The notes below the pieces were generated by a model that worked only from the letters and a program-made list of their open reading frames with translations, searched no databases and had not been told where the DNA came from. This document shows positions 27,543-41,115 of a DNA stretch of 46,133 nucleotides, piece by piece (positions within the stretch are counted from its first letter, which is position 1; each line of letters starts with the position of its first letter). The translations under genes were made by a program, and so were the position numbers. The stretch is from Thermoflexales bacterium (GTDB lineage Bacteria > Chloroflexota > Anaerolineae > B4-G1 > DUEL01), in NCBI GenBank assembly GCA_014360895.1, contig JACIWQ010000011.1, positions 1 through 46,133 of the forward strand, written 5' to 3'.

Positions 27543-29885
27543 ATGAAAACCAAACTCACTCTCATCCTGTTCCTGGCAGCCGTCGCCGCGCTGGCGGTGG
27601 CGGTGGGCCTGACCCGGGCCCAGGAGCCCCAGCCGCCGGGAGGGGTCGGCATCCAGGCCGCCCTGGGCACTGCCTTCACCTACCAGGGCCAACTGAAGCA
27701 GGGCGGCAACCCGGTCAGCGCTACCTGCGACTTCCAGTTCAGCCTGTGGGATTCCCTCAGCAACTCCACCGGCCAGATCGGCTCAACCCAGACCAGGACG
27801 GGGGTCCAGGTGAGCAACGGCCTCTTCACCATCCCCGACCTGGACTTCGGCGCCGGGGCCTTCCAGGGCGACGCCCGCTGGCTGCAGATCGCCGTCAAGT
27901 GCACGGGGGATAGCACTTACACCACCCTCACCCCGCGCCAGGCTCTCACCGCGGCGCCGTATGCGCTCTTTAGCAAGGCTGCCCCGTGGAACGGCCTGAC
28001 CGGCGTCCCATCGGGCTTTGCCGACGGAGTAGACGACACCGGCTGGTCGCTTACCGGTAACAGCGGCACCACGCCCGGCACCCACTTTCTGGGCACGACG
28101 GACAACCAGGCCCTGGAATTCAAGGTGAACGGCCAGCGCGTCCTGCGCCTGGAGCCCAACGGCTTCAGCCCGAATGTGATTGGCGGCTACAGCGGCAACA
28201 GCGTAGGCGCGGGCGTGGGAGGCGCGACCATTGGCGGAGGAGGCTACTTGGCTTCCCCCAACAGCGTCACCGGCTGGTATGGCACCGTCGGCGGGGGATG
28301 GAGCAACACCGCCGGTGGCAACCAGGCAACCATCGCCGGAGGCCGAGGGAACACCACCAACGGCGACGACGCTACCGTCGGCGGGGGAGCGTCCAACAAC
28401 GCCTCCGGTCAGGCGGCTACCGTTGCCGGTGGCAATATAAACACCGCCAGCGGCTACGTCGCCACCGTCAGCGGGGGTGGGAACAACGCGGCCCTGAGCG
28501 ACGGCGCCACCGTCGGCGGCGGGATGAACAACACCGTCCGCGGGGACAACTCGGTCATCGGCGGCGGCGCATACAATACCATCAGCGTGACCATGGCCGC
28601 CATCGGCGGGGGCTGGAGCAACCTGATCACCGGCACTGCCTCCTACGCTACCATCGGCGGGGGCTACGACAACTTGATTACCGGTACTGCGTCCATGGGC
28701 ACTATCGGTGGGGGTGACGCTAACACCGTCAGTTCGTGGAATGCCACCGTCGGCGGGGGCATACACAACACGGCCAGCGGCGATTCCTCTACCATCGGCG
28801 GGGGTGGATGGAACATTGCCAGCGGCATAGCCACTACCGTCGGTGGAGGTAACAACAACCAAGCCTGGGCCAGTTACGCTACCATTGCCGGCGGCTCCGA
28901 CATCACCGTCACTGCCAACGGCCAGTATGCGGCTGTTGGCGGGGGGAGCAACAACACCGCCAGTAATCAATATGCCACCATCGGCGGGGGCACGGGCAAC
29001 ATCGCTAGCGGCGTTGTCGCCACCATCGGCGGGGGCGCAAGCAACACCGCCAGCGGCAGTCCCGCCACCGTCGGCGGAGGGCGCAACAACACCGCCAGCG
29101 GCCTCGATGCCACTGTCAGTGGGGGCAATTACAACGCTGCTAGTGGCGTTGCTGCCACCATTCCGGGAGGATACCAGAACACTGCCGCGGGCGCTTTCAG
29201 TTTCGCCGCTGGCCTGCGGGCGAAGGCCAATAACCAGGGCTGCTTCGTCTGGGGCGATGCCACCAATGCCGATGTGTCCTGTAATGATAATAACCGCTGG
29301 ATAGCTCGCGCCAGCGGTGGGGTTTATTTCTATACCAACGCCAACCTCACCACTGGCTCTTATCTGGCCGCGGGTGGCAGTTCCTGGAACGCGGTGAGCA
29401 ACCGTGCCCTCAAAGAAAACTTTGCGCCGGTGGACACCCGCCAGTTGCTGGAACGCCTGGCGGCCATAGAAATCACCACCTGGAACTACAGGAGCCAGGA
29501 CCCGTCCATCCGCCACATCGGGCCTATGGCCGACGACTTTAACGCCCTGGTGGACGGCCTGGGCGGCGAGGGGAAGGACTACATCAACAGCCTGGACGCC
29601 GATGGCGTGTCACTGGCGGCCATCCAGGGGCTCTACGGCCTGGTCCAAGAGAAGGACGCCCGCATCGCCGAACTGGAGGCGCGGGTGGCGGCGCTGGAGG
29701 AGCAAAACGCGGCCCAGCAGGCGCAACTGGATGCCCTGGAGGCCCGCGTGGCGGCGCTGGAGCGGCGGGCTGGCAGCGGGTCCGTATCGGCGAGGGACTT
29801 CCCGGCCCCCTGGCTGGCGCTGGGTGGGCTGGCTATGCTGGGCGCGGTGGTCTACTGGCGGCGGAAGAACGGAGGGCGGCGATGA
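27543..29885 (+). CDS. surface adhesin with about 20 GGG repeats and a membrane-tethered S74 chaperone domain
   Basis: The 780-residue protein has a signal peptide (to about 27, TRAQ). The N-terminal domain shared with the proteins at 35629 and 37338 spans about 40-145 (FTYQGQL, SNGLFTIPDLDFG, LTAAPYAL). About 21 YadA-head-like repeats follow (about 205-555), each of the type ATVGGG..NTASG. The peptidase S74 / intramolecular chaperone domain begins SNRALKENFAPVD, with the Ser619/Lys624 pair spaced as in phage tailspike auto-proteases. A coiled coil (about 695-745) and a C-terminal membrane helix with a basic tail (LALGGLAMLGAVVYWRRKNGGRR) end it. An AGGAGG site precedes ATG. The stop overlaps the next start by 4 nt (ATGA), so the two are coupled. 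Confidence 0.85.
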   Translation: MKTKLTLILFLAAVAALAVAVGLTRAQEPQPPGGVGIQAALGTAFTYQGQLKQGGNPVSATCDFQFSLWDSLSNSTGQIGSTQTRTGVQVSNGLFTIPDLDFGAGAFQGDARWLQIAVKCTGDSTYTTLTPRQALTAAPYALFSKAAPWNGLTGVPSGFADGVDDTGWSLTGNSGTTPGTHFLGTTDNQALEFKVNGQRVLRLEPNGFSPNVIGGYSGNSVGAGVGGATIGGGGYLASPNSVTGWYGTVGGGWSNTAGGNQATIAGGRGNTTNGDDATVGGGASNNASGQAATVAGGNINTASGYVATVSGGGNNAALSDGATVGGGMNNTVRGDNSVIGGGAYNTISVTMAAIGGGWSNLITGTASYATIGGGYDNLITGTASMGTIGGGDANTVSSWNATVGGGIHNTASGDSSTIGGGGWNIASGIATTVGGGNNNQAWASYATIAGGSDITVTANGQYAAVGGGSNNTASNQYATIGGGTGNIASGVVATIGGGASNTASGSPATVGGGRNNTASGLDATVSGGNYNAASGVAATIPGGYQNTAAGAFSFAAGLRAKANNQGCFVWGDATNADVSCNDNNRWIARASGGVYFYTNANLTTGSYLAAGGSSWNAVSNRALKENFAPVDTRQLLERLAAIEITTWNYRSQDPSIRHIGPMADDFNALVDGLGGEGKDYINSLDADGVSLAAIQGLYGLVQEKDARIAELEARVAALEEQNAAQQAQLDALEARVAALERRAGSGSVSARDFPAPWLALGGLAMLGAVVYWRRKNGGRR

Positions 29886-30172
29886 ACGCCTCACGTTTTA
29901 CGTTTCACGCCTCACTCCTGCTTGCCCTCCTCGTCCTCCTGGCCCCCGTCGCCCTGGCCCAATCCGGCGGCGGCTACGACCTGACCCGGAGCACGGTGGA
30001 CGGCGGGGGGTATACCTGGAGCACGGGCGGCGCCTACGCGCTGGGCGGCACGGTCGGCCAGCCGGATGCGGGGGCCCTTTCCAGCGGGGGCTATACCCTG
30101 CTCGGCGGCTTCTGGGGCGGCGCGGCGGCGCAGTACCGGGTCTACCTCCCCCTGGTGCTGCGGAACCATTAG
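29882..30172 (+). CDS. small secreted protein with YLPLVLRN C-terminus (module 1)
   Basis: The 96-residue protein has a signal peptide cut near ALAQ. The mature part is Gly-rich: SGGGYDLTRSTVDGGGYTWS, YALGGTVGQPDAG and SGGYTLLGGFW. It ends RVYLPLVLRNH. It is closely similar to the protein at 36941 and related to that at 39139. GGAGGG lies 5 nt before ATG, so this start is well supported. The codons after it (SRFTFHAS) are encoded by four heptamer-repeat units (29888-29915), so part of the signal peptide comes from a repeat. Translational coupling to the S74 adhesin suggests a joint role at the surface. Function unknown. Confidence 0.82.
   Translation: MNASRFTFHASLLLALLVLLAPVALAQSGGGYDLTRSTVDGGGYTWSTGGAYALGGTVGQPDAGALSSGGYTLLGGFWGGAAAQYRVYLPLVLRNH
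29888..29915 (+). repeat. four heptamer-repeat units used as signal-peptide codons
   Basis: Units GCCTCAC, GTTTTAC, GTTTCAC and GCCTCAC are the reverse complement of the array at 11029-11133 (one unit has one change). They lie in frame directly after the start of the 29882 gene. Confidence 0.8.
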
Positions 30173-30185
30173 GGCCGGTCTAAAA

Positions 30186-30252
30186 ACCACGAAGGGCACA
30201 AAGGGCACGAAGATTTTCGGGATTCCTTTGTGTCCTTCGTGTCCTTTGTGGT
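30186..30252. repeat. palindromic repeat hairpin (ACCACGAAGGGCACAAAGGG)
   Basis: ACCACGAAGGGCACAAAGGG and its partner, ending CCTTTGTGGT, enclose a 15-nt loop. It is in the same family as the 76-bp copies at 22372. It lies just after the small-protein stop and may end transcription of module 1. Confidence 0.8.
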
Positions 30253-30292
30253 AAAATTCCTCACATGGCGCGGTGCTTTATAGGAAAGAGAA

Positions 30293-33200
30293 ATGCGCTT
30301 CTATCATCCGCGTCCATCCGCGTGCAGCCGCGTCCTGCTCCTGCTGCTGGCGGGCATCCTGGCCCTGCCGCCCCCCGCGCGCGCCGCGCCGTCCACCCCC
30401 CGCTTCTTCCACCTCACCGTCGCCGATGGCCTCTCCCACAATATCATCCGCGCTATCGTCCAGGACTCGCAGGGCTTCCTCTGGTTCGGCACCCAGGACG
30501 GCCTGAACCGCTACGATGGCTATGCCTTCACCGTCTTCCGCCACCGCCGCTCCGACCCCCACTCCCCGACCCATAACACCGTCCAGGCGCTGGCGGTGGA
30601 CGGGAGCGGCACCCTCTGGGTGGGCACCGTCGGCGGGTTAGACCGCTACGACCGGGATACCGGCGGCTTTGTCCACTACCCCGAGGTCGCCGAGTCGGTC
30701 ACCGTCATCTACCCGGCCCCGGACGGGACACTGTGGGTAGGCACGGCGGGATCGGGCCTCTTTCGCTACGATCCCCGGGGCGACCGGTTCCTCGCCGTCC
30801 CCGAACCGTTGTCGGATGGGCACATCCTGGCCCTCTCCCAGGACGGGGACGGCACCCTCTGGGTGGGAACGGAGTACGGCGGCCTGTGGGCCGTTCCCCC
30901 TGAGGGGCTTCCCTATGGCTACCGCCACGACCCCTCCGACCCCGGGAGCCTTCCCCACGACCGGGTGACGGCTATCCTGCGCGACCGGACCGGCACCCTC
31001 TGGGTGGGCACCGGCGCATACAACGAGCCATCCCTCGGCGGGCTGGCGGCCCTGGACCCGGCAACGGGCCGGTTCACCCCCTACCGCCAGGGCCTGCCCC
31101 ACCGGCACGTCACCGCGCTGGCCGAGGACCGCACCGGCACCCTGTGGGTGGGCACCGAAGGCGGCCTGGCCGTCCTGGACCGCGCGGCCGGGGGCGCAGC
31201 GACGCTGCGCCCCTACCGCCACGACCCGTTGGACCCCTACACCCTGGTCAACGACCGCGTCTACGCCCTCTACGAGGATCACACCGGCATCCTCTGGGTC
31301 GGCACCGACGGCGGCGTCAGCCGCTACGTCCCGGAGAAGAACCGCTTCACCCTCTACCGTCACAATCCGCTGGATCCGAACAGCCTGGGTGCAGAGCGCG
31401 TTGGCGCAGTGCTGAAGGACCGGGACGGCGTCCTCTGGGTCGGCCTGCACGCCGGTGGACTGGACCGCATCGCCCCCGACGGCACGGTAACCCACTATCG
31501 CCACGACCCCGCCGACCCCCACAGCCTGCTCCATGACCACGTCACCGCCCTCTACCAGGACCCGACTGGGGCGATCTGGGTCGGGACGGGCGCCGGGCTG
31601 GACCGATTGGATCCGGAGACAGGCGGGTTCACCCACTTCGTCTACGACCCCGACGACCCGAACTCGGTCGGCCCTGGCGCAGTTAAAGTCATCTACGGCG
31701 ACCGCGCCGGCGCGCTCTGGATCGGGACGGAGGAACCGGGCACCCTCTCCCGTCTGGACCCGAAGACGGGCCGGTTCACCGTTTACCGCTACGACCCCGA
31801 CCGTCCCGACGGCTTCCCCAACACCTACGGTGTCCGGGCCATCCTGGAGGACCGGGAGGGCTCCCTCTGGCTGGGCACGTACAACGGCCTGGTGCGCTTT
31901 GACCCCCGCACCGGCACGTTCACCCCGTATCGCCACGACCCCGAAGACCCCCACAGCCTGAGCGACGACTTTGTCTGGAGCCTCTACGAGGACGCGGAGG
32001 GCACGCTCTGGGTGGGCACCCACAGCGGGTTGAACCGCCTGGATAACCGGGAGACCGGGCGGTTCACCGTCTACGCCGTGGAGGACGGCCTGCCCAACGA
32101 TAGCATCGCTGCCATCTTGGGGGATGACGCAGGCTACTTGTGGCTGGCGACGATGGGCGGCGGGCTTGTCCGCTTTGACCCGCGCACGGAGACCTTCCGC
32201 ACCTACGACGAGAGCGACGGCCTGCAGAGCATGCACTTTATCCCCGGCGCGGCCTTCCGCAGCGCCGACGGCGAACTCTTCTTCGGCGGGACGGGCGGCC
32301 TCAACCGCTTCCGTCCCGCCGACATCCGCGAGAACCCCCACGCGCCCCCCGTCGTCCTCACCGCCTTTCGCGTCTTTGACCGGGTGCGGGACTTCGGGCA
32401 GGACCTCACCGCCGTGGACGAAATCCGTCTCTCCTACCGGGACAACTTTTTCTCCTTTGAGTTCGCCGCGCTGGACTACGCCGACCCGCGCAAGAATCAG
32501 TATGCCTATATCCTGGAAGGTTTTGACCGGGACTGGGTCCACGCCGGGACCCGTCGTTACGCGGCCTACACCAATGTCCCGCCTGGGGCCTACACCTTCC
32601 GCGTCCGGGCCAGCAACAACGACGGGGTCTGGAACGAGGAGGAGCTGGCCGTGCGGGTGGTCATCACCCCGCCCTTCTGGCAGACCCTGGGGTTCCGCGC
32701 TCTGGTGGCGCTGGTGGTTCTGGGCATCGCTTCGGCGGTCACACTGGCCCGAATGCGCTACGTGGAGACGCTGCGGCGGAGCGAGGAGCAGTTCCGCACC
32801 CTCTTTGAGCAGTCCCCGGTGGGTGTCTGCGAGGCCGACCTGAGCCGAAATCTGCCGCGCCTGGTCCACGCCAACCCCGCCTTCCTGCGCCTCTTCGGCC
32901 TGACCCCGGCGTCGCTCTTCGGGACACCGCTGGAGGACCTGCTGGCACCCGAGTCCCGCGCCGCGCTGGAGTCTCTCTGCCGGATGCCCGGCGCCGGGGA
33001 GCCGGTCACGCTGGAGGTGACAGCCCTGCGGGCGGACGGCGCGCCCTTCCCTGCTCGCCTGAGCGCCGCCGTCGGGCCGGGGCGCGCAGCGGACCGCTGC
33101 ATCCTGGTGGTGGAGGACCTCACCGCCGAGAAGGCCCTGCGCTCCGAGGAGGAGGCCATCGCCGAGGAGCGCCGCCGCATCGCCCGTGAGATCCACGACG

Positions 33201-33772
33201 GTCTGGCGCAGGACCTGGCCGCGGTGCGGCTGCAGGTGCGCCGCTGGCAGGCACTGGCGGAGAGCGACCCCGTCCGGCTGAAGGCGGAACTGGAGGAGTT
33301 CCACCGGTTCCTGGGCGAGGAAATCCGCGAGGTCCGCCGGGCCATCTTTGCCCTGCGCCCGGTGGTGCTGGACGCGGGCTTCTGGGTCGCCCTTCCCCGC
33401 TTCCTGGCCGAGTTCGGTGAGCAGCATCAACTGGACGTGAGCCTGGAGGTGAAGGGAACGACGGGGGACGAGCCGCCCGCGCTGCCAGCCCAACTGGAAC
33501 TGGCGCTCTTCCGCATCCTCCACGAGGCCCTGAACAACGTGGCCAAGCACGCCCGGGCGCGCAGGGTCTGGGTGGAACTGGACTTCTCGGATGGCATCGC
33601 TCTGCGGGTGCGAGATGACGGGGTGGGATTTGACCCGGCGGCCCTCCCGGAACTGGCCCGCCGGGGCCACCTGGGCCTGCAGCAGATACGGGAACGCGTG
33701 GAAGCCCTGGGCGGAGTGCTGGAGGTGCGCTCGCAGCCCGGGCAGGGGACGGAGATTCGGGTGAAGATTTAA
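30293..33772 (+). CDS. hybrid-type sensor histidine kinase with two-component propeller ectodomain
   Basis: The 1159-residue membrane sensor has a signal peptide (about 1-31). A 14-bladed-type propeller (about 35-690) holds repeats such as GTLWVGTEGGL and GILWVGTDGGVSRY. A Y_Y_Y domain (about 693-795, ending AYTFRVRASNNDGVWNE), one membrane helix (about 799-822), a PAS-like domain (SEEQFRTLFEQSPVGVCEA) and a HisKA_3 domain follow. The phospho-accepting His968 is in AREIHDGLAQDLAA, and the HATPase_c domain has NNVAKHARA and RDDGVGFD. It probably senses an extracellular sugar or polymer and signals to the NarL-type regulator at 34222. The start has AGGA upstream. Residues 4-14 are encoded by a repeat (CATCCGCGTCCATCCGCGTG). 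Confidence 0.92.
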   Translation: MRFYHPRPSACSRVLLLLLAGILALPPPARAAPSTPRFFHLTVADGLSHNIIRAIVQDSQGFLWFGTQDGLNRYDGYAFTVFRHRRSDPHSPTHNTVQALAVDGSGTLWVGTVGGLDRYDRDTGGFVHYPEVAESVTVIYPAPDGTLWVGTAGSGLFRYDPRGDRFLAVPEPLSDGHILALSQDGDGTLWVGTEYGGLWAVPPEGLPYGYRHDPSDPGSLPHDRVTAILRDRTGTLWVGTGAYNEPSLGGLAALDPATGRFTPYRQGLPHRHVTALAEDRTGTLWVGTEGGLAVLDRAAGGAATLRPYRHDPLDPYTLVNDRVYALYEDHTGILWVGTDGGVSRYVPEKNRFTLYRHNPLDPNSLGAERVGAVLKDRDGVLWVGLHAGGLDRIAPDGTVTHYRHDPADPHSLLHDHVTALYQDPTGAIWVGTGAGLDRLDPETGGFTHFVYDPDDPNSVGPGAVKVIYGDRAGALWIGTEEPGTLSRLDPKTGRFTVYRYDPDRPDGFPNTYGVRAILEDREGSLWLGTYNGLVRFDPRTGTFTPYRHDPEDPHSLSDDFVWSLYEDAEGTLWVGTHSGLNRLDNRETGRFTVYAVEDGLPNDSIAAILGDDAGYLWLATMGGGLVRFDPRTETFRTYDESDGLQSMHFIPGAAFRSADGELFFGGTGGLNRFRPADIRENPHAPPVVLTAFRVFDRVRDFGQDLTAVDEIRLSYRDNFFSFEFAALDYADPRKNQYAYILEGFDRDWVHAGTRRYAAYTNVPPGAYTFRVRASNNDGVWNEEELAVRVVITPPFWQTLGFRALVALVVLGIASAVTLARMRYVETLRRSEEQFRTLFEQSPVGVCEADLSRNLPRLVHANPAFLRLFGLTPASLFGTPLEDLLAPESRAALESLCRMPGAGEPVTLEVTALRADGAPFPARLSAAVGPGRAADRCILVVEDLTAEKALRSEEEAIAEERRRIAREIHDGLAQDLAAVRLQVRRWQALAESDPVRLKAELEEFHRFLGEEIREVRRAIFALRPVVLDAGFWVALPRFLAEFGEQHQLDVSLEVKGTTGDEPPALPAQLELALFRILHEALNNVAKHARARRVWVELDFSDGIALRVRDDGVGFDPAALPELARRGHLGLQQIRERVEALGGVLEVRSQPGQGTEIRVKI

Positions 33773-33801
33773 CCACAAAGGACACGAAGGACACAAAGGT
33801 T
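33772..33801. repeat. single arm of the ACCACAAAGGACACGAAGG family
   Basis: ACCACAAAGGACACGAAGGACACAAAGG type units follow the kinase stop codon directly. The opposite arm is not adjacent; partial arms lie at 34877-34894 and 35573-35604. The GxxExxY gene begins just after it. Confidence 0.65.
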
Positions 33802-33816
33802 TAACAGGAGGGAGAT

Positions 33817-34212
33817 ATGGCCCGGTATGATCCCATACCACCGGAGGCGGAGCGCTGGGGGAAAGCGTTGCTGGATGCGGCCTACGAGGTGCACACCGTT
33901 TTGGGCCCTGGCTTCCTGGAGCGTATCTACGAGGACGCTCTGTGCTACGAACTGGCCCTGCGGCAGGTCCCCTTTGAGCGCCAGAAAGCCATCGCCGTGC
34001 CGTACAAAGGCTACTGGATTGAGGGACAACGCCTGGACCTGCTGGTAGGCGGCCTGGTGGTCGCCGAGAGCAAGGCAGTGGACGAGATTCACCCTGTTCA
34101 TCAAGCCCAACTGATGTCCTACCTGAAGGCCACCGGCCTGCGACTGGGTTTCCTCATCAACTTCAGCGTCCTTCACCTGAGGGACGGCATCCATTGTGGT
34201 TTTAAAAACTAA
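33817..34212 (+). CDS. GxxExxY family protein (PD-(D/E)XK nuclease-like)
   Basis: The 131-residue protein has the signature G32-F-L-E35-R-I-Y38 and a PD-(D/E)XK-like core with Asp74 (RLDLLVGG) and Glu84-Ser-Lys86 (VVAESKAVD). The length is usual for the family, whose function is not established. An AGGAGG site precedes ATG. It is inserted between a histidine kinase and its likely response regulator, and follows a repeat arm directly. The last residues (GFKN) read through a TTGTGGTTTT end that resembles a repeat arm. This suggests the gene may travel with, or act on, these repeats, but that is only a suggestion. Confidence 0.85.
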   Translation: MARYDPIPPEAERWGKALLDAAYEVHTVLGPGFLERIYEDALCYELALRQVPFERQKAIAVPYKGYWIEGQRLDLLVGGLVVAESKAVDEIHPVHQAQLMSYLKATGLRLGFLINFSVLHLRDGIHCGFKN

Positions 34213-34221
34213 GGAGGGCCT

Positions 34222-34875
34222 ATGTCGCCGATTCGTGTGCTGATCGCCGATGACCACCGTCTTTTCCGCCAGGGGCTACGGTACGTCTGCCAGGCCGCAG
34301 GCATTGAGGTGGTGGGCGAGGCCGAGGACGGCTGGGAGGCGGTTCGGCTGGCCCGCCAGTTGCGGCCCGACGTCGTCCTGATGGACGTCCGCATGCCCGG
34401 CCTGGACGGCGTGGAGGCAACCCGTCTCATCACCGCCAACCAACCCGAAATCCGCATCATCGTCCTCACCATGTACCGGCAGGACCAGTACGTCTTTGAG
34501 GCCATCAAGGCCGGTGCGCTCGGCTATCTGCTGAAGGACATAGACGAAAAGGAACTGGTGGAGGCCATCCACGCTATCCACCAGGGGGATGCCCTGATCA
34601 ACCCCAGCCTGGCCGCGCGGCTCCTGGAAGAATTCCGTCGCCTGAGCCGGGGGGAAATCCCCGGAGAGGAAGAACTGACCGAAGGGGAGATGCAGGTCCT
34701 GCGCCTGGTGGCCCAGGGGGCCGACAACCGGACCGTGGCGGAGCGGCTGGCCATCTCGGAACGGACCGTGGCGAACCGGCTGAGCGAAATCTACCGCAAA
34801 CTGCACGTCAACAACCGCGTCCAAGCCGCCCTGGTCGCCCTGCGCCGGGGCTGGGTCTCGCTGGAGGAAGAATAA
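34222..34875 (+). CDS. NarL/FixJ-family response regulator
   Basis: The 217-residue protein has a receiver domain (1-125): acidic pair Asp10-Asp11, phospho-accepting Asp55 (VVLMDVRMPG), Thr83 and Lys105 (GYLLKDID). A LuxR-type helix-turn-helix lies at about 150-215 (LTEGEMQVLRLVAQGADNRT, then SERTVANRLSEIYRKLHV). HisKA_3 kinases signal to regulators of this kind, so it should be the partner of the propeller kinase, 450 bp upstream across the GxxExxY gene. An AGGAGG site precedes ATG. A strong terminator follows. Confidence 0.93.
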   Translation: MSPIRVLIADDHRLFRQGLRYVCQAAGIEVVGEAEDGWEAVRLARQLRPDVVLMDVRMPGLDGVEATRLITANQPEIRIIVLTMYRQDQYVFEAIKAGALGYLLKDIDEKELVEAIHAIHQGDALINPSLAARLLEEFRRLSRGEIPGEEELTEGEMQVLRLVAQGADNRTVAERLAISERTVANRLSEIYRKLHVNNRVQAALVALRRGWVSLEEE

Positions 34876-34945
34876 AACCAAGAAGGACACAAAGTTTTCT
34901 GCGTTCTCAAAGATACCCGCTGTCAGACCGAAACCATATCCCTGG

Positions 34946-34974
34946 AAAAAGTACCCTGTTCCTGGGTACTTTTT
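34946..34974 (+). terminator. rho-independent terminator after the NarL-type regulator
   Basis: AAAAAGTACCC and GGGTACTTTTT form a perfect 11-bp stem with a 7-nt loop, followed by more T residues. It ends the kinase-regulator transcript; the A-run on the left lets it work on the other strand too. Confidence 0.85.
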
Positions 34975-35035
34975 CTTTCCCCCGCCGGGGAATTTTCTCC
35001 CTTGCCTTCCGGCCCCCCAATCGGATATGCTATAG

Positions 35036-35551
35036 ATGCCGGCCGCCCCTCCTACCCCGCCTCCCCGCGACTTGCGACCTGCAACCTGCGACGTGCAACT
35101 TGCGACCTGCGACATGCAACCTGCGACCTGCGCCATTCTGGACCCCGATGCCGGATTCCGCCGTCGCCTGCGGGAATGGCTGGAGCGGGCGGACGAGGTC
35201 GCCGTAGTAGGAGAGGCCCGGGACGAACCGGAAGCCCGAGAACTTATCGCTGCCCAGCGGCCCCATATCTTTCTGGCCGACCTGGACGCTTTGGGCAATG
35301 CAGAGGGAGTCGCTCGCATTGCGGCCCGCTTCCCGGAGACCCGTCTCCTTATCCTGCACCGGCAGGAGGAGCGGGCGGCGGTGCTGGAGGCGCTCCGGCA
35401 GGGCGCGTGGGGCCACCTGGCGAAGGAGGACCTGAGCCCGGAGGAAGTCGTGGAGGCGGTGCGAATGGTGGCGCAGGGGGAGGCCTGCCTGAGTCCGAGG
35501 GTGGCCGGGTGGCTGGTGGAGGAGGTGGCGCGACGGCGGCGAGGAGCCTAA
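35036..35551 (+). CDS. stand-alone degenerate receiver protein
   Basis: About 171 residues, with no output domain. The receiver (about 34-160) aligns well with the NarL-type protein: Asp in IFLADLDAL is at the phosphorylation site, and Lys in HLAKEDLS is kept. However, the acidic pair is Asp-Pro (ILDPDAGF) and the switch Thr is replaced (LILHRQE), so signalling may be altered. All in-frame starts (ATG 35036, GTG 35092, ATG 35113) lie before or in the heptamer array, so the N-terminus has repeats DLRPATC/DVQLATC/DMQPATC. No Shine-Dalgarno is seen before 35036. Possibly a phosphate sink or binding partner of the kinase. Confidence 0.72.
   Translation: MPAAPPTPPPRDLRPATCDVQLATCDMQPATCAILDPDAGFRRRLREWLERADEVAVVGEARDEPEARELIAAQRPHIFLADLDALGNAEGVARIAARFPETRLLILHRQEERAAVLEALRQGAWGHLAKEDLSPEEVVEAVRMVAQGEACLSPRVAGWLVEEVARRRRGA
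35067..35129 (+). repeat. heptamer tandem array (GCGACCT type), 9 units
   Basis: Nine 7-bp units (GCGACTT, GCGACCT, GCAACCT, GCGACGT, GCAACTT and so on) with a 21-bp higher-order period, read as three heptapeptides. It differs in sequence from the GTGAAAC array at 11029 but has the same period. Confidence 0.88.
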
Positions 35552-35604
35552 AAACCATCAAGAATATGCAGATTTTCTTCGTGCTCTTTGTGTCCTTCGT
35601 GGTT
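35550..35604. repeat. degenerate ACCACGAAGG-family hairpin
   Basis: The right arm is clear (CTCTTTGTGTCCTTCGTGGT); the left arm (AACCATCAAGAATATGCAGA) is degenerate. It separates the receiver gene from the second adhesin module. Confidence 0.55.
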
Positions 35605-35628
35605 CAAATCAAAAAGAGGAGGTGCGAG

Positions 35629-36930
35629 ATGAAGAACCGATGGATTCTCCTAAGCGGCATCCTGGCAGTGCTTGTGCTGGCCCTGACCGCTGGCCTGACC
35701 CTGGCCCAGGGCCCGGAGCCGCCGGAGGGAGGAGTGCAGCCGCAAGGTGATGTGAGTATCCGGGAACTTATGGGTACAGCCTTCACCTACCAGGGTCAAC
35801 TCAAGAAGGACGGCAACCCCGTCAACGGCACTTGTGATTTCCAGTTTAGTCTATGGAATGCTGCCAGTGGAGGGGGACAGCTTGGCCTCACACTGACACG
35901 ATCAGATGTGGATGTCAATAACGGCTTGTTCACCATCCCTGACCTGAGCTTTGGCGCAGACCGCTTTAATGGGGATGCCCGCTGGCTAGAAATCGCCGTG
36001 CGCTGCCCGGCAGCAAGTGGGTCCTACACTACCCTCTCCCCACGCCAAAAGTTGAATCCTGCTCCCTACGCGCTGGCCTTGCCCGGATTGTGGACGCGAC
36101 AGCATGCCACCAGTCCAAGCCTAATCGGCGGCTACAGCGGCAATGGTGTGACCTCTGGTGTCATGGGGGCAACGATTAGCGGCGGCGGTGCACCATCTCA
36201 CATCAACAGCGTGACCGATGACTATGGTACGGTTGGAGGAGGATACGAAAACCGGGCCGGAGACGGTACCGGCTCAGTAGCCGACAAGCCCTATGCCACC
36301 GTCGGCGGGGGCAGTGGAAACACAGCCGGTGGCGAAGGCGCCACCGTCAGTGGTGGGGTACAGAACACCGCCAGCGGAGGCCATGCTACCATCGGCGGGG
36401 GTATCTATAACCAGGTGACTGCCTCGTGGGATGCCACTATTGGCGGGGGATACGGCAACATTGCCGAAGGTCAGGGCTCCACTGTACCCGGCGGGGTCCA
36501 GGCACGCACTGTGAGTTATGGCCAGATGGCCTATGCCAGTGGGCAATTCGCCAACGCCGGTGACGCGCAGACCTCTGTATATGTTGTGCGGGGCACCACC
36601 ACGGACGACAATTGGTACAGTCTGTATCTGGACGGGGTTGATCGTCAGATATTTGTCGCCTCCGGCCGGACGATGGCCTTTGATATCCTGGTGGTGGGGC
36701 GCACGCAGGCAGGCAAGTCCAACGGCTATCGAATCACTGGGGTTGTAGAGAATGTCTCTGGATCGCCCTCACAGTGGCACTCTGTATCTACCCTTCACGA
36801 GGATGATACCGGCTGGGGTACACAGGTCATGGTAGCGGCTGATGGTTGCCTGCATGTTCAGGTCAACGGCGATACGGGCGACACGGTGCGCTGGGTAGCC
36901 GTGGTGCACACGGCTGAGGTCTCGTGGTAG
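35629..36930 (+). CDS. surface protein with GGG repeats (module 2), no S74 domain
   Basis: The 433-residue protein has a signal peptide (MKNRWILLSGILAVLVLALT, cut near LAQG). The shared N-terminal domain (about 48-145) has FTYQGQLKKDGNPVNGTCDF, GLFTIPDLSFGADRF and LNPAPYAL. About eight ATVGGG..NTA-type repeats (about 165-295) follow, then a distinct C-terminal domain of about 130 residues (VYVVRGTTTDDNWYSLYLDG to VVHTAEVSW). The first two parts closely match the 27543 protein, but the S74 chaperone, coiled coil and membrane helix are absent. A strong GGAGGT precedes ATG 35629; the frame extends to 35002 but nothing supports that start. The small YLPLVLRN-type gene follows 10 nt later. Confidence 0.8.
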   Translation: MKNRWILLSGILAVLVLALTAGLTLAQGPEPPEGGVQPQGDVSIRELMGTAFTYQGQLKKDGNPVNGTCDFQFSLWNAASGGGQLGLTLTRSDVDVNNGLFTIPDLSFGADRFNGDARWLEIAVRCPAASGSYTTLSPRQKLNPAPYALALPGLWTRQHATSPSLIGGYSGNGVTSGVMGATISGGGAPSHINSVTDDYGTVGGGYENRAGDGTGSVADKPYATVGGGSGNTAGGEGATVSGGVQNTASGGHATIGGGIYNQVTASWDATIGGGYGNIAEGQGSTVPGGVQARTVSYGQMAYASGQFANAGDAQTSVYVVRGTTTDDNWYSLYLDGVDRQIFVASGRTMAFDILVVGRTQAGKSNGYRITGVVENVSGSPSQWHSVSTLHEDDTGWGTQVMVAADGCLHVQVNGDTGDTVRWVAVVHTAEVSW

Positions 36931-36940
36931 GAGGCAAGTG

Positions 36941-37231
36941 ATGAGACAGATAAGCCCCTTGCTCACTTTTCTATTCCTGACCACTTTGCTTGCGCTACCG
37001 GCCGCCCAGGTTCTGGCCCAATCCGGTGGCGGCTACGACCTGACCTGGAACACGATAGACGGCGGGGGGTATACCTGGAGCACTGGCGGTACCTACGCGC
37101 TGGGCGGCACGGCCGGGCAGGCGGATGCAGGGTCCCTTTCCGGCGGCGGCTACACGCTGCTCGGCGGCTTCTGGTGCGGCGCGGCGGCGCAGGTCCGCGT
37201 CTTGCTGCCGCTGGTGCTGAGGAACTATTGA
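36941..37231 (+). CDS. small secreted protein with LLPLVLRN C-terminus (module 2)
   Basis: The 96-residue protein starts at ATG 36941 (TAGGAGG 6 nt upstream; a GTG lies one codon earlier). A signal peptide (cut near VLAQ) precedes SGGGYDLTWNTIDGGGYTWS, YALGGTAGQADAG and GGGYTLLGGFW. It ends RVLLPLVLRNY. The protein is about 80% identical by eye to that at 29882, and the DNA is also close, which points to recent duplication. It shares the layout of modules 1 and 3. Function unknown. Confidence 0.82.
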   Translation: MRQISPLLTFLFLTTLLALPAAQVLAQSGGGYDLTWNTIDGGGYTWSTGGTYALGGTAGQADAGSLSGGGYTLLGGFWCGAAAQVRVLLPLVLRNY

Positions 37232-37308
37232 CCTCACCCCTCACCCCCAACTCCCTCTCCCCTCTCCGATTCGGAGAGGGGAAGGGGGCCGGGGGATGGG
37301 ATGAGGTC
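37232..37308. repeat. palindromic repeat (CCTCACCCC / GGGATGAGGT family)
   Basis: CCCCTCTCCGA and TCGGAGAGGGG form an 11-bp stem around one base, nested within CCTCACCC and GGGATGAGG ends. The same element occurs at 39401-39473. Confidence 0.8.
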
Positions 37309-37337
37309 CTGCGGCCGCACACAAAGTGGGGTGCAAA

Positions 37338-39122
37338 ATGAACACGAAATGGCTTTCGCTTCTACTTGTCCTAATTCTGGCCCTCGGCGGGCTGACGCTG
37401 GCCCGCGCGGCGCCGGAGAGTACGCCGCTATCCCAGGCCGGCGGCGCACCGACCGTCGTCTCTTATCAGGGGCGGGTGCAGGTGAGCGGCGCGCCCTTCA
37501 CCGGCAGCGGCTACTTCAAGTTCGCCGTCGTCAACCAGGCCGGGAATATCACTTATTGGTCCAACGACGGCACGGGCAGCGGCGGCAACGAGCCGACCGC
37601 TGCCGTGCCCCTGACGGTGAACAACGGTCTTTTCACCGTCCTGCTGGGAGATACCACGCTGAGCGGCATGACCCAGTCGCTGAGCGCGGCGGTCTTTGCT
37701 GCCCCCGACCGCTACCTGCGGGTGTGGTTCCGCCCTGGCGGCAGCGGCGCCTTCACGCTGCTCACGCCCGATACGCGCATCGCCGCCGTGCCCTATGCGC
37801 TGCAAGCCCAGCACGCCGCTCCGCCCGGCAACGTTATCGTCGTCGCCAAAAGCAACGGCGATTTCAATTCCATCCAGGGAGCGATCAACAGCATCACCGA
37901 TGCCTCTGCCGGCAACCCCTACCTGATCTGGGTGGCGCCGGGCTGGTACAACGAGGCCGTGAAGATGAATCCCTACATCCACCTCCAGGGGGCCGGGCAA
38001 GGGGTGACGGTCATCCAGGCGGCCGTCCCCAACGGCGCGGTGCTGAAACTTGTCAGCAACACCAGCGTGCGCGACCTGAGCGTATCCAACATCGGCAGCG
38101 GCCCGACGAACTATGGGATATCCGGTCAGGATGTCACCGGCGTGGAAATAGCCAACGTCTTTGCGGAGGCCGGCGGGCTGGGCACCTCCAACATCGCCAT
38201 CTACCTGACGGGTGACAGTGAGGTCGTGCTGGAAAATGTGACGGCGGAGGCGAGCAAGGCCAGCAACAGCAACACGGGCCTCTCCATCACCCTGGGACCA
38301 GAGGTCACGCTGCACGGCGGGGCCTTCACCGGGATGGGGGGCACGTATGCCTACGGCATCTGGGTCGCCGGCGGGTCGGACACCTTCCTGGGCGCGGCGG
38401 ACGTGCGGGCCATCGGCCAGGACGCCAGCGACACCAACGCCGGGTTGGAGAACGGCAACTATCCCACCGTTCTCCTGCAGGGTGGCTTTTTCCTGGGCAG
38501 CGGCGGGGAGTATGCTTATGGCATCTACAACCACAATGCCGCTCTTCTGGAAGCAGAGGGAGTGACGGCGCAGGGAGAAAATGCTGAGACTGCCAGAGCG
38601 CTGTACAACTACACCGATAGCCGGGCTATTCTGCGCGGCGGCTCGTTCACCGCCAGGACCTCCGTGACCGCCGGTATGGCTTATGCCATCCATAACGCTG
38701 GTGGCGCCAACACGATTCTGGAGACCCATGACGTAACCGCCCTGGCAGAAGGGACAGCCTATAGCCAGGGTTTGCGTAACGAGGCGGCTGGTACCGTAGC
38801 GCGGGTCAACGGTGGAACCTTTACCGCCAGAGGCGGCAGTATGACCGCTATCGGCATCTCCACCTGGGGCAACCTGACTGCGCAGGGAACCTCCGCTCTG
38901 GCAGAGAATGGCACTGTAGGCAATTACGGTCTCTACGTAAGCGGTGATCAAGCGCGGGCCGATGCCTGTCGCTTCAAAGGCAGCACATACGCGGTGAGGG
39001 AAACCTCCGGTGCTCTCTATCTGGCCGTCAGCCAATTGGACGGCGGGATGCAGCGCACTGCCGGTACGGTCACCTGCTTTGAGGTCTATAACGGCAACTA
39101 TGCGGCCTATTCCTGCCCATAG
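37338..39122 (+). CDS. surface beta-helix protein (module 3)
   Basis: The 594-residue protein starts at ATG 37338 (GGGGTG upstream; a GTG at 37326 is less likely). A signal peptide (cut near ARAA) is followed by the shared N-terminal domain (VSYQGRVQVSGAPFTGSGYF, NNGLFTVLLGDTTLSG, AVPYALQA). A right-handed beta-helix of pectate-lyase type spans about 165-560 (GDFNSIQGAINSITD, LIWVAPGWYNEAVKMNPYIH). Catalytic lyase or esterase residues were not identified, so binding rather than an enzyme role is possible. The small-protein gene follows 16 nt later. Confidence 0.8.
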   Translation: MNTKWLSLLLVLILALGGLTLARAAPESTPLSQAGGAPTVVSYQGRVQVSGAPFTGSGYFKFAVVNQAGNITYWSNDGTGSGGNEPTAAVPLTVNNGLFTVLLGDTTLSGMTQSLSAAVFAAPDRYLRVWFRPGGSGAFTLLTPDTRIAAVPYALQAQHAAPPGNVIVVAKSNGDFNSIQGAINSITDASAGNPYLIWVAPGWYNEAVKMNPYIHLQGAGQGVTVIQAAVPNGAVLKLVSNTSVRDLSVSNIGSGPTNYGISGQDVTGVEIANVFAEAGGLGTSNIAIYLTGDSEVVLENVTAEASKASNSNTGLSITLGPEVTLHGGAFTGMGGTYAYGIWVAGGSDTFLGAADVRAIGQDASDTNAGLENGNYPTVLLQGGFFLGSGGEYAYGIYNHNAALLEAEGVTAQGENAETARALYNYTDSRAILRGGSFTARTSVTAGMAYAIHNAGGANTILETHDVTALAEGTAYSQGLRNEAAGTVARVNGGTFTARGGSMTAIGISTWGNLTAQGTSALAENGTVGNYGLYVSGDQARADACRFKGSTYAVRETSGALYLAVSQLDGGMQRTAGTVTCFEVYNGNYAAYSCP

Positions 39123-39138
39123 CGCCCGGAGGTGAGCG

Positions 39139-39399
39139 ATGAAACGAGCCATTCTTCTGGCTTCGCTGGCCTTTCTCCTGCTGACCGGCAGTGTGATGGC
39201 CCAGGGCGCGTCGTCCATCCCCTGGTCCGTCATCGGCGGCGGGGGCGGGCATGCGGAGGCCGCGCCCTATGCCCTGGATGGCACCGTCGGCCAGCCGATT
39301 GTGGGGCAAGTTAGCAACTACAGCCTGTGTTCCGGCTACTGGTGCGGCGCGGCGGCGCAGGTCCGCGTCTACCTGCCGCTGGTGCTGCGGAATTTTTAG
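39139..39399 (+). CDS. small secreted protein with YLPLVLRN C-terminus (module 3)
   Basis: The 86-residue protein has a strong ribosome site (GGAGGTGA) and a signal peptide (MKRAILLASLAFLLLTGSVM, cut at AQG). The mature part is a divergent copy of the 29882/36941 family: SVIGGGGGHAEAAPYALDGT, VGQPIVGQ and SGYWCGAAAQ. It ends RVYLPLVLRNF, so the C-terminal motif is conserved more than the middle. It follows the beta-helix protein, as in the other modules. Confidence 0.82.
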   Translation: MKRAILLASLAFLLLTGSVMAQGASSIPWSVIGGGGGHAEAAPYALDGTVGQPIVGQVSNYSLCSGYWCGAAAQVRVYLPLVLRNF

Positions 39400-39489: not shown

Positions 39490-41115
39490 ATGTCCGTCCG
39501 ACGCCTTTTTGTAATATCAATCCTCTGCCTGGCGATTCTCGCCTGCAACCTGACGGCCCCGTCCACCCCGGCCGCGCCCACCGCTGGCGAGACGCCCGTG
39601 CCGCTCCCTACCGCTACCTCACCGGCCCCGGCCGAAACGACCGTTCCCGCCGCCGGCCGCACCTTCTACGTCGCCCCGAACGGAGACAATGCCAACCCCG
39701 GCACCCGCGAACAGCCCTGGGCCACCCCCGGCTACGGCTCCCGGCAACTCGCCCCCGGCGACACCCTCATCATCCTGGGCGGCCGCTACACCTTGCGCGA
39801 GTACGACGCCGACATCCTCACCCCGCCCTCCGGCACCCCCGCCGCCTGGATCACCATCCGGGGCGAGGAGGGCCACCGCCCCGTCCTGGCCGGGCGGGAG
39901 GACCTGCTCACGGCCATCAACCTCTCCGGTGTGCAGTACGTGCGCGTGGAGAACCTGGAAATCACCCACGACGACACCGCCACCGGCGAGGCCGCCTGGT
40001 TCCGCGAGGGGGTGGAAATCCTGGGCGCGCCGTCCGCCCATATCGTCCTCAAGGACCTCTACATCCACCACATAGACGAGTTCGGGATAAACATCCAGGA
40101 CGTGGAGGACCTGCAAATCATCAACTGTCGCGTTGAGTACTGCGGCTTTGGTGCACTGGGCGGCCCGGCCGGGGAACACGGCGGCTGGCGGGATGTCACC
40201 ATCCGGGGCTGCTCCCTCTCCTGGAGCGGCCACTACTACCAGGGTGGCGACGGCTCCAATCGTCCCTATGACCGCCCCGATGGTTTCGGCATCGAGCCTT
40301 CGCAGGGGCCTATCCTCATTGAGGACACCATCGCCGAGCACAACTATGGCGACGGGCTGGACTCCAAAGCCGCCAACACCGTCATCCGCCGCGCCGTCGT
40401 CGCCAACAACGCCTGCGACGGGGTCAAACTGTGGGGACCGGACAGCCGCATCGAGAACACCCTCATCTACGGCCGGGGCGACGGCAACCCCGAACCCTCC
40501 CCCTGGGCGGCCATCGTCATTGCCCCGGAGGAGCAGGCCAATGCTCATTTCGAAATCATCAACGTTACCGTGGACGATGCTCTTGGCCGAAATTACCTGA
40601 TGTACGTGCAATACGATCACCCGGACGTGCCGGCGCATCTCACGATACGCAATACCATTTTCAGCGGGCGGGGAGAAGAGAGTCCCATCTATGTCAACGC
40701 GGCCAGCACCCTCATTGCCGACCACAACCTCTTCTACCTGCCGCAGAACGAGGTCATCCTGACCCACGGGGATACCGCCTACACCTGCGCGGACATTGCC
40801 TCCCTGGGGCCGGGGAACCTCTGCGGCGACCCGCGCTTTGTGCGCCCGGCCTGGGGCGAGCCGGGCGACTATCACCTGCAAGCAGGCAGCCCGGCGATAG
40901 ACGCCGGCACCGCCAACGGTGCGCCGACGGCCGACCTGGAGAACCGTCCCCGCGACGCCCAACCCGACATCGGCGCGTACGAGTACCCATCCGCCACGTC
41001 CCGGCTGTTCCTCCCCTATGTCCTTCGTGCGTTGGCAATCGCTGGAGGCCGCTCTGGGGGAACGGCGGGCCAGCGAGCGACCCCCGATGTTCTGCGGGCC
41101 TGCCGTATTTGGTGA
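39490..41115 (+). CDS. parallel beta-helix lipoprotein
   Basis: The 541-residue protein starts at ATG with AGGAGG 7 nt upstream. A lipoprotein-type signal (MSVRRLFVISILCLAILAC, Cys19) is followed by a Pro/Thr/Ala linker (about 20-55). The beta-helix opens with the DUF1565-like FYVAPNGDNANPGTREQPWA and continues with LHIHH-like turns (VLKDLYIHHIDEFGI) to DLENRPRDAQPDIGAYEY. Proteins of this kind bind or cut polysaccharides outside the cell; the active site is not identified. The C-terminus has RLFLPYVLRALAIA, a YLPLVLR-like motif followed by 29 more residues, which is unusual. It follows module 3 and its repeat. Confidence 0.8.
   Translation: MSVRRLFVISILCLAILACNLTAPSTPAAPTAGETPVPLPTATSPAPAETTVPAAGRTFYVAPNGDNANPGTREQPWATPGYGSRQLAPGDTLIILGGRYTLREYDADILTPPSGTPAAWITIRGEEGHRPVLAGREDLLTAINLSGVQYVRVENLEITHDDTATGEAAWFREGVEILGAPSAHIVLKDLYIHHIDEFGINIQDVEDLQIINCRVEYCGFGALGGPAGEHGGWRDVTIRGCSLSWSGHYYQGGDGSNRPYDRPDGFGIEPSQGPILIEDTIAEHNYGDGLDSKAANTVIRRAVVANNACDGVKLWGPDSRIENTLIYGRGDGNPEPSPWAAIVIAPEEQANAHFEIINVTVDDALGRNYLMYVQYDHPDVPAHLTIRNTIFSGRGEESPIYVNAASTLIADHNLFYLPQNEVILTHGDTAYTCADIASLGPGNLCGDPRFVRPAWGEPGDYHLQAGSPAIDAGTANGAPTADLENRPRDAQPDIGAYEYPSATSRLFLPYVLRALAIAGGRSGGTAGQRATPDVLRACRIW

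Follow-up and report, generated by a model that had tools for sequence, protein, structure and literature searches.

A two-gene cassette recurs in this Chloroflexota genome, in which the gene for a large secreted protein with a constant N-terminal domain (N-domain) and a variable body is directly followed by the gene for a small secreted protein that ends in the YLP-box, a putative sorting motif. The pair is also found in relatives from several parts of the phylum, and the sequence of the small protein co-varies with the N-domain of its neighbor and hardly with the body. We give an even chance to the interpretation that the small protein acts in trans on a swappable fiber, as its dock and its sorting tag, and would bind it, anchor it and address it to a machinery that putatively recognizes the YLP-box.

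Cassettes in the window and their proteins

The window, by which we mean the whole stretch of DNA analyzed (46,133 nt, contig C13 of a 3.57 Mb draft genome whose closest named relatives are Chloroflexota, mainly Anaerolineae), contains three pairs of large and small genes, all on the plus strand, with the following features:

27543..29885, plus strand: large 1, a predicted secreted fiber protein of 780 aa with a signal peptide and a MAT_N-like N-domain
Within 27543..29885, plus strand: body of large 1, in order GGG (UspA1/YadA-head-like) repeats, S74, coiled coil and a hydrophobic tail with RR..RR
27660..27980, plus strand: constant N-terminal domain of large 1 (FTYQGQL...APYAL), from N-domain comparison
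28728..29261, plus strand: head repeats of large 1 (residues 396-573), which match Moraxella UspA1 (PDB 3pr7, phmmer E 1.5e-26)
29397..29555, plus strand: Peptidase_S74 of large 1, above the Pfam cut-off, with an S-N-R-A-L-K motif that includes the catalytic-type S..K
29805..29882, plus strand: C-terminal hydrophobic segment and basic tail of large 1 (APWLALGGLAMLGAVVYWRRKNGGRR), as read from the sequence
29882..30172, plus strand: small 1, 96 aa, with a signal peptide, a Gly-rich beta body and a YLP-box
30140..30169, plus strand: YLP-box of small 1 (VYLPLVLRNH), NF050076 15.5 bits (cut-off 15) and NF053834 11.3 bits (cut-off 10)
35629..36930, plus strand: large 2, a secreted protein of 433 aa with the common N-domain, GGG repeats and another C-terminal domain
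36941..37231, plus strand: small 2, which ends in LLPLVLRNY and has an alternative GTG start at 36938
37338..39122, plus strand: large 3, a secreted protein of 594 aa with a divergent N-domain (Bdello_MAT_N E 3.8e-6) and a beta-helix-like body
39139..39399, plus strand: small 3, which ends in VYLPLVLRNF

The earlier note had described three copies of a two-gene module at these positions, and the re-check confirmed both the positions and the spacing. The two genes of pair 1 overlap by 4 nt (stop-to-start -4 nt), such that the start of small 1 lies within the stop of large 1 (ATGA), and the stop-to-start gap is 10 nt in pair 2 and 16 nt in pair 3. A strong GGAGG-type Shine-Dalgarno sequence precedes each of the three small starts, and a promoter scan gave no signal above chance. 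As the note had also proposed, the large proteins share one N-terminal domain, with 33-60% identity, and the small proteins form one family, being 48-72% identical to small 1 with a common LPLVLRN end.

All three large proteins start with a signal peptide followed by the N-domain, and their bodies differ. The GGG repeats are combined with S74 in large 1 and with another C-terminal domain in large 2, and the body of large 3, which is beta-helix-like by eye, has no Pfam or PDB match. Propeller-like and pectinesterase-like bodies also occur in relatives, where the large proteins have many C-terminal types, many of which are non-S74; a Pfam scan placed S74 above the cut-off also in the large protein at locus L066. 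For a relative encoded in the window's genome, we modeled a read-through protein, an artificial construct in which an open reading frame is joined by reading one stop codon as a residue, with in-frame pairs only in the alignment. This model (pTM 0.41) is confident for the N-domain only, which is predicted as a beta-rich structure with pLDDT >90 across much of its length and a pLDDT of about 88 or higher for residues 31-80 in blocks of 10 residues, and it gives no usable interface. A Foldseek search with the read-through model against the PDB gave no match at E <= 0.001, the best being a C2-like structure at 0.084, and the viral structure matches of the long read-through model had low TM-scores and carry no information.

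The small proteins are about 96 aa long. Their signal peptide is followed by a Gly-rich body, along which YxL and GFW motifs are spaced out, and by the terminal YLPLVLRN. The YLP-box of small 3 scores 13.8-15.2 bits, the higher value in a six-frame search, against the cut-off of 15, and small 2 is not among the YLP-box profile matches listed in the search that found small 1. No Pfam family covers the small body, no homology to the N-domain was seen beyond the likeness of the signal peptides, and a Foldseek search with a model of the small protein gave no PDB match. This model, predicted for the small protein alone by AlphaFold2 with 89 sequences, is poorly folded (pLDDT 64, pTM 0.35), which is compatible with the need for a partner but is no evidence for one.

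The YLP-box ends 97 of the 109 complete small proteins, and several of the remainder end in a near form; it is at the C-terminus of none of the 140 large proteins. The window's genome contains at least two dozen matches above the NF050076 cut-off, many of them at the very end of long proteins. The tail of the small proteins is thus a general putative sorting motif that had been catalogued before, and the special feature here is that a separate partner carries it. In a few relatives (L099, L140, L141, L122 and L123) the small body is fused to long C-terminal extensions that are beta-helix-like or PKD-like, and in L122 and L123 the extension comes after an internal YLP-like box.

Cassettes 1 and 2 are separated by other genes (30293-35551). 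These are a large Reg_prop/Y_Y_Y sensor histidine kinase (30293-33772) and, identified by eye, a small GxxExxY-like open reading frame (33817-34212) and two response-regulator-like open reading frames (34222-34875 and 35036-35551), the second of which contains a GCGACCT 7-bp/21-bp tandem repeat at 35067-35136. These genes could control the cassettes. Just behind cassette 3, at 39490-41115, is a gene for a beta-helix/choice-of-anchor Q protein in which a YLP-like FLPYVLR precedes the stop by about 27 residues, as though an extension or a frameshift had altered the tail. YLP-box proteins of this kind are encoded beside cassettes on contigs C208 and C16.

Pairing of the two families across genomes

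All seven small genes in the window's genome are located directly behind a large gene. Outside the window, four other contigs of this genome carry five further large genes of like build. Four of these genes have a small gene behind, and the fifth, the eighth large gene overall, is cut by a contig end, beyond which a small gene could not be seen. From relatives, we took 80 regions around matches to the small family, and 70 of the 89 small genes in these regions are directly downstream of an N-domain gene. Outside the class to which the window's genome belongs, 30 of the 45 listed small genes are behind a large gene. Most exceptions among the 89 are due to contig ends, gene breakage or a changed order of the pair. 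Five unpaired small genes sit at contig edges, and those with room upstream were inspected individually: some follow a large gene that is broken (L064 7530 and L085) or another secreted protein gene that itself follows a large gene (L064 10385, L065, L073 and L090), and apparent orphans were seen in L068, L079, L095 and L139.

Another 40 regions were picked around large genes with no listed small gene nearby, which biases the sample toward exceptions. Despite this, 89 of the 119 assessable large genes have a small gene immediately behind them, and intact large genes with no small gene behind are found in, e.g., L142, L143, L144, L150 and L151. Over 89 pairs, the median gap is 11 nt and 15 pairs overlap, a spacing of the type associated with translational coupling.

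The other secreted proteins encoded ahead of small genes (L065, L073, L121 and L064:10385) belong to a different family, are about 480-610 aa long and peptidase-propeptide-like by eye, and in L064, L065 and L073 an N-domain gene is located just upstream of them. In L025, L026, L087 and L091 the order is reversed, with the small gene ahead of the large gene but adjacent to it, and the small proteins of these pairs mostly belong to a divergent subtype (SIDWWVVAGGG...).

When Chloroflexota were sampled evenly (201 genomes), both families were encoded in 22 genomes, the small family only in 2, the large family only in 1 and neither in 176 (Fisher 5e-26, a p-value that ignores shared ancestry). The copy numbers of the large and small genes are correlated across the genomes of 80 relatives (r=0.93). 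The cassette-positive genomes belong to the same class as the window's genome and to other parts of the phylum, in about ten families and 16 genera. The neighbor counts and the co-occurrence exclude chance as the cause of the pairing. The small family is rarely found without a large neighbor, nor are the pairs scattered at random in relatives, and the modular display system that the earlier note had proposed from the constant pairing with variable bodies therefore survived the test set to refute it and is well supported.

The cassette is also present in a cultured organism. Plasmid pHAU01 of Herpetosiphon aurantiacus DSM 785 carries Haur_5099 (L182:4899-6971), which encodes an N-domain, GGG repeats, an S74-type motif and a hydrophobic/RR tail, and a small gene that overlaps it by ATGA. 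The small gene (L182:6968-7255) encodes a protein that ends in TTFLPAAIRGD and has no entry in the gene table of PLSDB, a table with known gaps. The next gene on the plasmid, Haur_5100 (L182:7456-9102), encodes integrin-alpha-type repeats and a YLP-box end, AYLPLTTRGE.

Co-variation and the role of the small protein

To compare the parts of the cassette, we used the distances of mature N-domains, bodies and small bodies in 84 cassettes from 37 genomes. The distances of the mature N-domains and the small bodies are correlated with r=0.72, and when the small proteins were reassigned within each genome the correlation fell to r=0.23±0.06, with none of 2000 shuffles reaching 0.72. The correlation between N-domain and small protein is 0.685 between cassettes with bodies of no detectable similarity and reaches 0.70 when these are compared within one genome. 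For the body and the small protein it is only 0.21, although the body lies between the N-domain and the small protein on the DNA; body distances are coarse, since most bodies have no detectable similarity. This suggests that the N-domain and the small protein make up a common chassis, of which the body is the exchanged part.

If the small protein is a dock and sorting tag, the large protein would be secreted by Sec and form a fiber with a constant, MAT_N-like base, on which the adhesive body or tip, such as a UspA1-like head, a beta-helix or an S74 tip, could be exchanged. The small protein would be translated from the common message by translational coupling, then secreted, and would dock via its conserved beta body onto the constant base, and its YLP-box would route the complex to the cell surface or hold it there. 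With such anchoring in trans by base and small protein, bodies could be swapped with no loss of surface attachment. S74 domains act by cleaving off the C-terminal part after trimerization. In the S74 versions, such autoproteolysis would shed the C-terminal membrane tail, as predicted for the hydrophobic/basic tail of large 1, so that the mature fiber would need another attachment, for which the N-terminal dock would remain.

The main rival explanation casts the small protein as a chaperone for secretion or assembly, which would aid trimerization of the fiber and provide no permanent anchor. Phage tail fibers and their assembly chaperones are encoded in pairs, in which a long fiber gene is directly followed by a small gene. 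The cassettes resemble them in gene order, overlap and coupling-type spacing and in the occurrence of S74 and other phage-like tips, and a chaperone that acts on the constant base would give the same co-variation with the N-domain. However, unlike the phage chaperones, the small protein is secreted, carries a sorting-type motif at its extreme C-terminus and evolves with the constant base rather than with the tip. A body-specific chaperone should co-vary with the body, which is disfavored by the two correlations above, and a general chaperone would need no copy in each cassette, as opposed to the matched copy numbers observed. All forms of this explanation are disfavored by the YLP-box, and we consider it unlikely. 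The earlier note had left it open whether the small protein is a partner, an anchor or a secretion helper; the co-variation and the YLP-box favor a dock or anchor and speak against a helper that is specific for the body.

It is rather improbable that the two genes are merely co-inherited and encode independent secreted proteins that make no contact and stay together for reasons of dosage or through recombination in their shared flanks. Recombination that swaps bodies within a cassette passed on vertically would give an equal pattern of co-variation, and the intact large genes with no small gene and the small genes behind unrelated secreted proteins (L065, L073 and L121), which count against a dock, fit this explanation. 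However, the near-perfect co-occurrence in two samples, the matching copy numbers, the kept spacing and the presence in other classes exceed usual neutral linkage, and both genes stay adjacent in the rearranged orders. Slightly less probable still is a surface or pilus-type structural subunit, with the fibers decorating a filament built of the small protein: every cassette comes with a small gene of its own, and 9 of 17 small proteins match NF058579 (CPR_pilus_PamT) weakly, at best with E 1.2e-5, but the matches seen in full are far under the cut-off, the small proteins have no pilin features, and the YLP-box is common to many non-pilus secreted proteins. Assignment as a PamT equivalog was rejected at 20.1 and 15.8 bits for two small proteins of the window, against a curated cut-off of 240.

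Comparison with known systems

The large proteins are similar to the mosaic adhesive trimer (MAT) fibers of Bdellovibrio bacteriovorus, which also have a signal peptide, an N-domain that is constant, rich in beta structure and about 130 aa long, a variable body, several copies per genome and tips with or without S74 (PMC10769870). The profile of their N-domain, NF053851 (Bdello_MAT_N), was matched by 9 of 16 N-domains from the window's genome and related genomes, with a best E of 1.8e-7, at scores that in those seen are 20-27 bits (26.8 for large 3) and thus under the curated cut-off of 60 bits. The paper states that the MAT N-domain has no homologue in the PDB, with which the failure of our N-domain model to find a good PDB match agrees (PMC10769870). 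Unlike the MAT fibers, the cassettes are found in Chloroflexota rather than Bdellovibrionota, their bodies include UspA1-like heads and propeller-like and beta-helix-like structures, and they have a coupled small YLP-box partner, which is not among the MAT features in the passages of PMC10769870 used here.

The head repeats of large 1 are like those of the trimeric autotransporter adhesins (UspA1/YadA), and together with S74 they suggest that the large proteins may form trimeric surface fibers. However, no Pfam match to the YadA-type C-terminal membrane anchor was found in the large proteins scanned, and their C-termini differ from UspA1/YadA in consisting either of S74, a coiled coil and a hydrophobic/RR tail together or of another domain. 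A prophage tail-fiber origin of the cassette was set aside, as the N-domain is in none of 50,697 phage records.

Small 1 is above the curated cut-offs of both YLP-box families, NF050076 and NF053834. Unlike in the usual YLP-box proteins, the motif is absent from the protein presumably served and resides on a separate small protein encoded behind it. A tripartite anchor of the LPXTG/MYXO-CTERM type was rejected for the small proteins, which stop a few residues past the YLP-box and have no transmembrane helix and basic tail.

A literature search on YLP-box, LPLVLRN or PamT found no paper, and none of the open papers searched, which exclude subscription papers, describes the coupled pair or its co-variation. 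The view of the earlier note that no system of this form has been described could not be upheld as it stood, since the large proteins resemble MAT fibers (PMC10769870) and the small tail corresponds to a putative sorting motif already present in NCBIfam. We rate the parts, that is the MAT-like base, S74, the UspA1-like head and the YLP-box, as already known, and the coupled pair with its co-variation as new to the open literature searched.

The gene pair gives the putative YLP-box motif a defined partner and a testable function, and Herpetosiphon aurantiacus DSM 785 is a cultured organism with the pair in which this can be tested. It also suggests a way in which the swappable adhesins of large families can use one common anchoring device, which, if true, would amount to plug-and-play display in Chloroflexota. 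We tentatively propose, at somewhat less than an even chance, that the small protein is the cell-surface receptor for the MAT_N-type fiber base and its sorting tag in trans, with one dock for many swappable bodies. For the MAT fibers, the authors infer a surface partner that is still to be found (PMC10769870). The gene pair is a concrete candidate for such a partner, in another phylum, and points to what to seek beside the MAT fibers in Bdellovibrio.
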